Shown piece by piece: positions 21,125 to 28,377 of a stretch of DNA of 49,195 nt (positions within the stretch are counted from its first letter, which is position 1; each line of letters opens with the position of its first letter). The DNA lies in assembly GCF_900112765.1 (NCBI RefSeq), contig NZ_FOMZ01000004.1, positions 1 through 49,195 on the forward strand, given 5' to 3'. Below the pieces are notes generated by a model that was given only the letters and a program-made list of their open reading frames with translations, searched no databases and was not told the origin of the DNA. This DNA is from Actinopolyspora alba. Lineage in GTDB: Bacteria > Actinomycetota > Actinomycetes > Mycobacteriales > Pseudonocardiaceae. A program made the position numbers and the translations under genes.

Positions 21125-23599
<2,475 letters not shown>

Positions 23600-23717: not shown

Positions 23718-26700
23718 ATGACCGAGACCTTGCCCCCGGAGGGTGGCCGAGTCGAACCGGTCGATCTCCAGCAGGAGATGCAGAACTCCTACATCGACTA
23801 CGCCATGAGCGTCATCGTGGCGCGGGCGCTGCCCGACGTGCGCGACGGGCTCAAACCGGTGCACCGCAGGGTGCTGTACGCGATGTACGACTCCGGGTTC
23901 CGGCCCGACCGCTCCTACGTGAAGTGCTCCCGCGTGGTCGGCGACGTGATGGGTAACTACCACCCGCACGGCGACTCCGCGATCTACGACACCCTGGTGC
24001 GGATGGCCCAGCCGTGGTCGATGCGCAACGTGCTCATCGACGGCCAGGGCAACTTCGGCTCGCCCGGCAACGATCCGGCCGCCGCCATGCGCTACTGCGT
24101 AACCGGTGACACCCTGGTGAAACTGGCCGACGGTTCGTCGGCGCGCATCGGCGACATCGTGCCGGACGCGCGGCCGAACAGCGACAACGACATCGATCTC
24201 AAGGTGCTCGGACGTTCCGGCGATCCGGTACGTGCCGAGAAGCTCTTCCACTCGGGTGAGCACCCGACTCTCAGGCTGCGCACCAAGGGCGGCTACGAGC
24301 TGACCGGAACGTACAACCATCCGGTGCTGTGCCTTACGAAGGTGCTCGGCGTTCCGACCCTGCTGTGGAAGCTGCTGGAGGAGATCGGCCCCGGCGACCA
24401 CGTCGTCATGCAGCGGAGCGAACTTTCGCAGGGTGAGGACGACCACGTGCCGTACGTCGCCGACTACATCAGGGAGCGTGGCGCCGAACGCTGGACGGAG
24501 CGCGACTGGCTGCGGCGGCACAACGTGGACCGCATCGAGCGCTGGGAAACGGATCGTGCCGAGATCACGAGCCGGATCACCGACCCCGAGGTTCTCGACG
24601 TTGTCGAACCCCTGGTGGACGGCAGGTTCTACTACGCCGAGGTCGAATCGGTCACCGACGTCGGACCCCAGCCGGTCTACAGCCTCCGGGTGGACAGTGA
24701 CGATCACTCCTTCGTCACCAACGGGTTCGTCAGTCACAACACCGAATCCCGGCTGGCGCCGCTGGCGATGAGCATGCTGGCCGAGATCGAAGAGGACACC
24801 GTCGAGTTCTCGGACAACTACGACGGTCGCACGCAGGAGCCGGACGTCCTGCCCTCGCGCATCCCCAACCTGCTGGTCAACGGCGGTGGCGGCATCGCGG
24901 TGGGGATGGCGACCAACATCCCGCCGCACAACCTCCGCGAGGTCGCCGACGGCGTGGTCTGGGCGCTGGACAACCCCGAGGCCACCGACGACGAGCTGCT
25001 CGAAGCCATGATCGAGCGCATCAAGGGGCCGGACTTCCCGACCCACGCGATGATCATGGGCACCAACGCGATCGCCGACGCCTACCGCACGGGCCGCGGC
25101 TCGCTCCGGATGCGCGCGGTGGTCGACGTGGAGGAGGACGCCAAGGGGCGCACCTCGCTGGTGGTCACCGAGCTTCCGTACCAGGTCAACCCGGACAACC
25201 TGATCGAGAACATCGCCACGATGCATCGTGAGGGCAAGATCTCGGGGATCACCGACATCGCCGACGAGTCCAACAGTCGGCGCGGGATGCGCATCGTGGT
25301 CACGCTCAAGCGGGACGCGATCCCCAAGGTCGTGCTCAACAACCTCTACAAGCACACCCAGCTGCAGACCACCTTCGGCGTCAACATGCTGGCGCTGGTC
25401 GACGGCGTGCCCCGCACCCTGCGGCTGGACCAGGTGATCCGCTACTACGTGCGGCACCAGATCGACGTGATCGTGCGGCGCACCAGGCACCGCCTGCAGC
25501 GCGCCGAACGGCGTGCCCACATCCTGCGCGGGTTGACGCTGGCGCTGGACCAGTTGGACGCGGTCATCAACCTGATCCGCGGTTCGTCGACCGTGGACGA
25601 CGCCCGTTCCGGGCTGATCGAGCTGCTCGGCATCGACGAGGACCAGGCCACCGCGATCCTGGACATGCAGCTGCGCAAGCTGGCCGCGCTGGAGCGGCAG
25701 AAGCTGCTGGACGAGCTGGCCGAGATCGAGGCGCAGATCGCCGATCTCAACGACATCCTGGTCAAGCCGGAGCGGCAGCGCCTGATCGTGCGCGACGAGC
25801 TGATGGAGATCGTGCACAAGCACGGCGAGGAGCGGCGCACCAGGATCGTCCCGTACGAGGGCGAGGTTTCCATGGAGGACCTCATCGCGGACGAGGACGT
25901 GGTGGTGACCATCACCCGAACCGGTTACGCCAAGCGGACCCGGACCGATCTCTACCGGGCCCAGAAGCGCGGTGGCAAGGGTGTGCAGGGCGCCGCGCTG
26001 AAGCAGGACGACATCGTCTCGCACTTCTTCGTGTGCTCCACGCACGACTGGATCCTGTTCTTCACCAACAAGGGGCGGGTCTACCGTGCCAAGGCCTACG
26101 AGCTGCCGGAGGCGAACCGCACCGCCCGCGGCCAGCACGTGGCGAACCTGCTCGCGTTCCAGCCGGACGAGCACATCGCCCAGGTGATGCAGATCAAGGA
26201 CTACACCGTCTCCCCGTACCTGGTGCTGGCCACCAAGAACGGGCTGGTCAAGAAGTCCAAGCTCACCGACTTCGACTCCAACCGCTCCGGTGGGCTGATC
26301 GGCGTCAACCTCAAGGACGGCGACGAGCTGGTCGGTGCCGTGCTCTGCTCGCCGGAGGACGACCTGCTGCTGGTCTCGGCCGAGGGGCAGTCCATCCGAT
26401 TCAACGCCAGTGACGAGGTGCTGCGTCCGATGGGACGTGCCACCTCCGGCGTGTTGGGGATGCGGTTCAACTCCGGTGACGAGCTGTTGGCCATGGGCGT
26501 CTGCCACGAGGACCGTTACGTGCTGGTCGCGACCCAGGGCGGGTACGCCAAACGCACGCCCATCGACGAGTACCCGGTGCAGGGACGCGGCGGCAAGGGC
26601 GTGTTGACCATTCAGCACGACCAGAAACGTGGCAGGCTAGTGGCAGCGCTCATCGCCGAACTGGAGGATGAGCTCTACGCGATCACCTCCACGGGCGGGG

Positions 26701-26858
26701 TCATTCGCACCACCGCCAAGGAGGTGCGCAAGGCCGGTAGGCAGACGAAGGGGGTGCGCCTGATGGATCTGGGTGAGGGGAACTCGCTGGTGGCCATCGC
26801 GCGCAACGCCGATGAAGCCGCCGATCCGGACGCAGCCGGCCCGGAGCAACGAAAGTAG
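23718..26858 (+). CDS. gyrA: DNA gyrase subunit A interrupted by a mini-intein
   Basis: The precursor is 1,046 residues; removing the intein (residues 127-341) leaves an 831-residue GyrA of normal size. The N-terminal breakage-reunion domain holds [10 protein letters not shown] with Ser87 and Asp91 at the main quinolone-resistance positions (susceptible-type residues), then [17 protein letters not shown], where Tyr126 is the DNA-linking catalytic residue. The intein follows directly and the sequence resumes [13 protein letters not shown]. The C-terminal beta-pinwheel carries a GyrA-box (QKRGGKG) and a second box (QGRGGKG). The mature protein requires protein splicing, because the insert splits the active-site RYTES segment. 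Confidence 0.97.
24096..24740 (+). mobile_element. GyrA mini-intein, 215 residues, no homing endonuclease
   Basis: An in-frame insert starting with Cys and ending His-Asn, followed by Thr as the +1 nucleophile. Splicing block A is [20 protein letters not shown] (intein residues 1-20); block B is [10 protein letters not shown] (71-80) with the conserved His; the C-terminal blocks F and G are [18 protein letters not shown] then VSHN (194-215). Mycobacterial GyrA inteins at this same site are about 420 residues with a LAGLIDADG endonuclease; here there is no LAGLIDADG motif and only about 70 residues between the splicing halves, a collapsed form. All residues needed for standard class 1 splicing appear present. 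Confidence 0.95.
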
Positions 26859-27946: not shown

Positions 27947-28020
27947 GGGCCTATAGCTCAGTCGGTTAGAGCGCTTTGCTGATAACGAAGAGGTCGGAGG
28001 TTCAAGTCCTCCTAGGCCCA
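27947..28020 (+). tRNA. ileT: tRNA-Ile (anticodon GAT)
   Basis: A 74-base cloverleaf. The acceptor stem GGGCCTA pairs with TAGGCCC, the D arm is AGCTCAGTCGGTTAGAGC, the anticodon loop CTGATAA carries GAT, and the T arm is GGAGGTTCAAGTCCTCC. CCA is not encoded. Its place after gyrA is the same as in mycobacteria. Confidence 0.97.
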
Positions 28021-28028
28021 CGTGACAC

Positions 28029-28301: not shown

Positions 28302-28377
28302 GGGGACGTAGCTCAATCGGCAGAGCACCGCTTTTGCAAGGCGGGGGTTAGGGGTTCGATTCCCCTCGTCTCCACCA
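28302..28377 (+). tRNA. alaT: tRNA-Ala (anticodon TGC)
   Basis: A 76-base gene including an encoded CCA end. The acceptor stem GGGGACG pairs with CGTCTCC (one G-T), the D arm is AGCTCAATCGGCAGAGC, the anticodon loop TTTGCAA carries TGC, and the T arm is AGGGGTTCGATTCCCCT. It pairs with tRNA-Ile as in mycobacteria. Confidence 0.97.

Follow-up and report, generated by a model that had tools for sequence, protein, structure and literature searches.

The gyrA locus

The window, the whole 49,195-nt stretch of the Actinopolyspora alba genome that was analyzed (contig NZ_FOMZ01000004.1, forward strand), contains an open reading frame of 1046 aa (23718–26858) encoding DNA gyrase subunit A (GyrA) with an in-frame insert. 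The insert (24096–24740) is 215 aa long, begins with CVTGDTL, ends with NGFVSHN, and lies between Tyr126 of GyrA, which we take from the gyrase literature to be the active-site residue, and the following Thr (+1). The initial annotation had described it as running from Cys1 to His-Asn215 before a Thr, directly after Tyr126, and the reading frame with its translation bears this out. One gyrase-A-type gene was found in the source genome (genome search, E ≤ 0.001). Downstream of gyrA, ordinary genes for tRNA-Ile (GAT, 27947–28021) and tRNA-Ala (TGC, 28302–28377) were located. The features of the locus are as follows:

21626–23599, + strand: presumably gyrB, named from its sequence; context, 5' of gyrA (open reading frame, used in the tree)
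23718–24095, + strand: GyrA N-extein, 126 codons, ending with Tyr126 at 24093–24095 (open reading frame, profile, genus alignment)
24096–24740, + strand: GyrA mini-intein, 215 aa, Cys1...His214-Asn215, without homing endonuclease (profiles, sequence match, predicted fold)
24096–24437, + strand: N-terminal splicing region, residues 1–114, the part before the deletion (TIGR01445, residue counts)
24096–24098, + strand: Cys1, within the N-terminal splicing region
24309–24320, + strand: block B, T72–H75 (T72 and H75 present in every one of the 75 distinct inteins)
24437–24438, + strand: junction of the missing 615 bp (205 codons, LAGLIDADG endonuclease), by comparison with A. righensis; exact cut ambiguous by one base
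24438–24626, + strand: kept helical segment, residues 115–177 (alignments, predicted model; putative DNA recognition)
24627–24740, + strand: C-terminal splicing part with His214 and Asn215 (TIGR01443, residue counts)
24741–26858, + strand: GyrA C-extein including the stop codon, starting with the +1 Thr (open reading frame, genus alignment)

Identification of the insert as a mini-intein

Class 1 inteins begin with Cys or Ser, carry a TxxH motif in block B, end with His-Asn, and are followed by Cys, Ser, or Thr at position +1; the insert has all of these residues. Inteins were read from 83 of the 105 loci scanned (22 gave none), and the removal of 8 exact duplicates left 75 distinct sequences. 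T72, H75, and H214 were present in all 75, as were Cys1 and Asn215, both of which were demanded by the extraction pattern. All 83 extracted inteins were preceded by Tyr and followed by Thr, the pattern allowing Y/F/H/W and T/S/C, respectively. The insertion point is that of the other actinobacterial GyrA inteins (83 extracted) and corresponds to an empty codon in six congeners.

A search of the insert alone with intein profiles, suggested in the initial annotation, was positive for both NCBIfam models, intein_Nterm TIGR01445 (44.5 bits; cut-off 24.5) and intein_Cterm TIGR01443 (25.6 bits; cut-off 15.6), while Pfam Intein_splicing (PF14890) matched below its curated cut-off (32.9 vs. 35.8 bits). 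In the genome-wide search the Pfam match scored 32.2 bits, and this family also had matches in 6 of 14 control genomes; the intein of Actinopolyspora righensis likewise remained under the cut-off (33.0 bits). The whole reading frame passed the NF038098 model "intein-containing DNA gyrase subunit A" (2063.8; cut-off 1850).

The closest solved structure by sequence was the GyrA intein of Mycobacterium xenopi (1am2, E = 2e-64). A predicted model of the insert (pLDDT 94.6) had the HINT fold and matched the same structure with E = 3.6e-24 and a TM score of 0.91 by target length; the homology to the mycobacterial GyrA intein proposed earlier is supported by both comparisons. The earlier assertion that the LAGLIDADG domain was lost also stands: no LAGLIDADG family was detected within the insert with Pfam at E ≤ 1, and 0 of the 205 endonuclease positions were filled. 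An intact LAGLIDADG endonuclease, the mark of a full-length homing intein, is therefore absent, which places the insert among the mini-inteins. By sequence and predicted model, the insert belongs to the known group of endonuclease-free GyrA inteins, in which it is an ordinary case.

The deletion relative to A. righensis

The nearest named relatives of A. alba were A. righensis DSM 45501 and Actinopolyspora xinjiangensis DSM 46732. The GyrA intein of A. righensis is 420 aa long and differs from that of A. alba by 16 substitutions in 645 nt and by one 615-bp gap; DNA identity was 98.8% over the first 330 nt and 96.3% over the last 300 nt. The gap corresponds to residues 115–319 of the A. righensis intein, and its loss removes the LAGLIDADG endonuclease and little else, with the reading frame preserved. 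The missing 205 residues matched Pfam LAGLIDADG_3 with 79.6 bits (cut-off 22.5). We read both LAGLIDADG motifs of A. righensis (LAGAFVSEG and LIGLFTGDG) as intact in their acidic residues. Full-length GyrA inteins of this type (about 420 aa, NF038098), including that of A. righensis, occupy the same site as the A. alba copy but carry the 205-residue endonuclease domain.

In the predicted model of the full-length A. righensis intein (pLDDT 93.3), both edges of the gap lie in less confidently predicted loops (mean 74 for residues 111–120 and mean 70 for residues 311–320), before the helix 117–132 and after the helix 299–310; thus, the deletion runs along domain borders. The sequences around the two breakpoints have one 5-bp and four 4-bp words in common, none of them in register, which does not support deletion between direct repeats. 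The junction base agrees with neither side. End-joining or slippage is the likelier route.

A search of the A. alba genome with the 205-residue A. righensis domain as a query gave no match (E ≤ 0.01), so that a free-standing endonuclease acting in trans was rejected as well. Within the genus, matches to this query at E ≤ 0.01 lay inside full-length inteins alone, in 3 of 10 genomes.

Distribution in the genus and age of the deletion

The gyrA gene was found in all ten Actinopolyspora genomes: one (A. alba) contained the mini-intein, three contained full-length inteins (A. righensis, which is genome G005, and G009, 420 aa each; G008, 422 aa), and six were empty. In the latter, GyrA is 831 aa long with nothing inserted at the same codon, which is the length expected after splicing; the initial annotation had proposed looking for empty sites in close relatives, and they do occur there. 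The DNA identity of the gyrA exteins was 98.8% between A. alba and A. righensis, 98.4% between A. alba and its nearest empty allele (genome G004), and 99.1% between G004 and A. righensis. In trees of gyrB and of a 12-kb upstream stretch, A. alba was sister to the pair of A. righensis and the empty G004; support for the pair was 100/98 in the ten-genome trees and 100/100 in the five-genome trees. The gyrA extein tree had the same topology, less firmly supported (88/90).

The same LAGLIDADG domain is carried by congeners G009 and G008, and 52 of the 75 distinct inteins, each at least 412 aa long, have at least 200 of the 205 endonuclease positions filled; therefore, the full-length state is ancestral. 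Among the three full copies, dN/dS of the endonuclease was 0.145, 0.211, and 0.291, indicating purifying selection, so the domain could well have remained functional almost up to its deletion. Near relatives with an empty site exist for every one of the three full copies, which may reflect either repeated loss or repeated invasion. The G004 empty allele differs from A. righensis by two synonymous changes within the 12 nt before the insertion point; being two sites only, they may be due either to chance or to a cleavage-resistant site.

Between A. alba and A. righensis, extein dS was 0.041; between A. alba and G004, it was 0.060. For the intein, dS to A. righensis was 0.080 overall and uneven along its length: behind the junction (24438–24740) it reached 0.143, vs. 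0.035 before the junction and 0.041 in the exteins, all based on few changes. Over the common intein parts dN/dS was 0.103, with 4 nonsynonymous changes against 12 synonymous ones, the changes being unevenly distributed. Taken as a whole, intein dS fits descent with the gene, except for the excess behind the junction. The deletion is younger than the divergence of A. alba and A. righensis (extein dS 0.041), which speaks for a young, single-step loss of the endonuclease.

The helical middle segment

In the predicted model of the insert, residues 115–177 form four helices (121–128, 133–141, 147–160, and 164–173). By alignment, they correspond to the segment located between the endonuclease and the C-terminal splicing block of full-length inteins and differ little from their A. 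righensis counterparts. The initial annotation had suggested that this middle part (intein residues 110–180) might be an endonuclease remnant or a replacement linker; it is instead an ancestral helical segment.

All 45 positions of residues 116–160 are filled in A. alba, in contrast to 0–14 in the ten other mini-inteins of at most 220 aa, showing that the segment is usually lost with the endonuclease; its near-intact state in A. alba fits a young deletion. A twelfth mini-intein (G748, 224 aa), from another actinobacterial family, also keeps the segment in an altered form; the segment is thus mostly lost in 10 of the 12 GyrA mini-inteins found among the matches listed, and the view that the A. 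alba copy alone retains it was dropped. The G748 intein is 67% identical to that of A. alba over residues 1–215 but has a different short linker at the junction and a changed WTER stretch. One of three genomes of its family, its own, contained the intein, and no full-length copy was found there.

The GyrA mini-intein of M. xenopi (1am2, 4oz6) resides in the same gene, has the same splicing domain, and is free of endonuclease like the A. alba copy; from its published description we take it to be at the same site. Residues 2–111 and 162–215 of the A. alba intein align with it, whereas the stretch between does not, and the helical segment is longer in A. alba. The two mini-inteins probably arose by separate deletions. 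A mirror image was observed in a 378-aa GyrA intein (L111, genome G027), with 204 of 205 endonuclease positions filled but 4 of 45 positions of the helical segment.

Among solved structures, the full-length A. righensis model matched the TliVMA/PI-PfuI architecture first (7qss, 7qsu, 1dq3). The accessory domains of these archaeal inteins are structurally diverse, and the GyrA segment is likened to them by position. In inteins combining HINT and endonuclease domains, accessory domains modulate DNA cleavage, according to PMC8966425. By analogy of position, the helical segment is perhaps an accessory DNA-recognition domain. A bolder scenario is conceivable but highly improbable: that a still-functional endonuclease was deleted when near relatives had empty target alleles, and that the freed 215-residue intein retains DNA-recognition helices and thus may still bind the gyrA homing site, shielding alleles or modulating gyrA. 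If true, the intein would have a part to play in DNA binding despite having no endonuclease.

GyrA inteins outside the genus

Matches to the A. alba intein were found in at least 89 of 390 genomes of the family (1e-10), at least 79 of 397 of the order (1e-15), and 20 of 396 of the phylum (1e-15), G748 being the one newly fetched among the last; there is overlap among these samples, and inteins of other genes are counted among the matches. From the matches listed, 60 places of the family search and 18 of the order search were picked by hand, short frames being favored; therefore, the share of mini-inteins is not a frequency. The 22 loci without an extracted intein comprised seven gyrase-A-like junctions, three Acidimicrobiales proteins, and 12 others, among which L120 (G051) and L123 (G194) look like GyrA-type inteins missed by the pattern. 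Endonuclease content was scored by filled positions and not by intact motifs: patterns for the motifs found all three in 42 of the 75 rows and missed real motifs in some full-length rows, so residue counts were relied on. One scan of viral contigs for phage carriers gave six stretches matching a pattern, none of which encodes a relative.

The 75 distinct inteins fell into three length groups: 11 did not exceed 220 aa, 11 measured 274–381 aa, and 53 had 406 aa or more. In a quickly built tree from the splicing columns, with 29 of 72 inner branches open, the mini state required four changes (at least two forced by well-supported branches) and the intermediate state eight (at least six forced). 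Together, the changes and the intermediate lengths indicate that endonuclease loss is recurrent in the GyrA allele and has intermediates, unlike in fungal PRP8 inteins as described in PMC1508164. The count of mini changes stayed at four after G748 was added, so its separateness as a loss is not supported by the tree.

A 182-aa GyrA mini-intein is shared by four species of one family (L158–L161; G442, G448, G466, and G538) and forms a supported clade, an apparent case of long-term persistence. Aquificota genome bins (L077–L080) contained same-site GyrA inteins of 414, 363, 414, and 274 aa, with partial endonuclease loss. In seven gyrase-A-like genes of other members of the family (L127, L128, L130, L131, L135, L137, and L141), recognized as such by the junction GHGNFG..DDGPAASRY/C (GHGNFG or PHGNFG) alone, an intein of about 50% identity sits apparently at the same active-site position. 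It is as if the intein had moved between the related genes, gyrA and the gyrase-A-like one.

The A. alba genome encodes two more inteins in its DnaB helicase gene (L001, G000:C27:65067-67685), one of 306 aa, starting with Ala after GVGK, and one of 328 aa, starting with Cys. One weak Pfam match to LAGLIDADG_3 was obtained, in the second (21.9 bits, below the cut-off). By match extents, both are present in 6 of the 10 genus genomes (A. alba included) and the first alone in four, a distribution unlike the patchy one of the GyrA intein.

Origin of the mini-intein

We consider it very probable that a class 1 GyrA intein was recently turned into a mini-intein by one in-frame 615-bp deletion. Its anatomy, the deletion, and the direction and relative age of the latter are established at the level of sequence comparison. 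The ancestor would have had a standard intein of about 420 residues with a splicing domain, a LAGLIDADG endonuclease, and the helical segment; once the A. righensis lineage had branched off, a single deletion would have taken the endonuclease and left the rest.

The initial annotation had viewed persistence without homing as a hint of either a fixed relic or regulation. A mini-intein that was old, long fixed, and retained for a regulatory effect of its splicing on gyrase would have a parallel in the 182-residue element described above, which demonstrates that durable mini-inteins exist; however, a full-length relative at an extein dS of 0.041, a deletion younger than the A. righensis split, and the absence of the intein from 6 of 10 genus genomes, including the sister of A. 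righensis, make such an origin very unlikely. Nothing was seen that points to a host function, and the regulatory role, when considered, gained no support. Arrival of a ready-made mini-intein from another species together with a gyrA stretch appears less probable still, in spite of the GyrA mini-inteins present in other actinobacterial families and of the raised dS behind the junction (0.143): 151 of the 152 splicing-domain residues in the tree are identical to A. righensis, the intein overall is neither closer nor much farther than the exteins (dS 0.080 vs. 0.041), and these endpoints occur in no other mini-intein of the alignments. Finally, the genome is a draft of 42 contigs, and an assembly artefact might hide a full-length gene, but we regard this as the least probable origin of all: the common words near the breakpoints (at most 5 bp) seem too short for a repeat collapse, the deletion is in frame and along domain borders, and the endonuclease was not found elsewhere in the assembly.

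For the mini-intein produced by the recent deletion, ordinary protein splicing is the most likely course, by analogy with a well-studied family. The steps are the known chemistry of class 1 inteins. The splicing domain would fold within the GyrA precursor, Cys1 would attack the bond after Tyr126, Thr+1 would take over, and Asn215 would cyclize, releasing an 831-residue GyrA with the Tyr–Thr bond of the active site rebuilt. Without splicing, the precursor would have no continuous active site. Homing would be lost, as the mini-intein can hardly home by itself, and the occupied site should block re-invasion by full-length copies.

Significance

Inteins are described as passing through a cycle of invasion, endonuclease decay, and loss (PMC8966425, PMC4071816), and the co-existence of full, mini, and empty alleles is already known in Halobacteria (PMC4071816). 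In one literature collection, we found no paper joining inteins with Actinopolyspora, or with pseudonocardi and gyrase. Here the three alleles occur in three genomes whose gyrA exteins are at most 1.6% apart in DNA; what is new is the recent age of the reduction, which is one deletion along domain borders. A. alba thus shows a known kind of element shortly after it took a step expected in its life cycle, and the pair of A. righensis and A. alba offers a natural before-and-after test of whether the loss of the endonuclease costs splicing.
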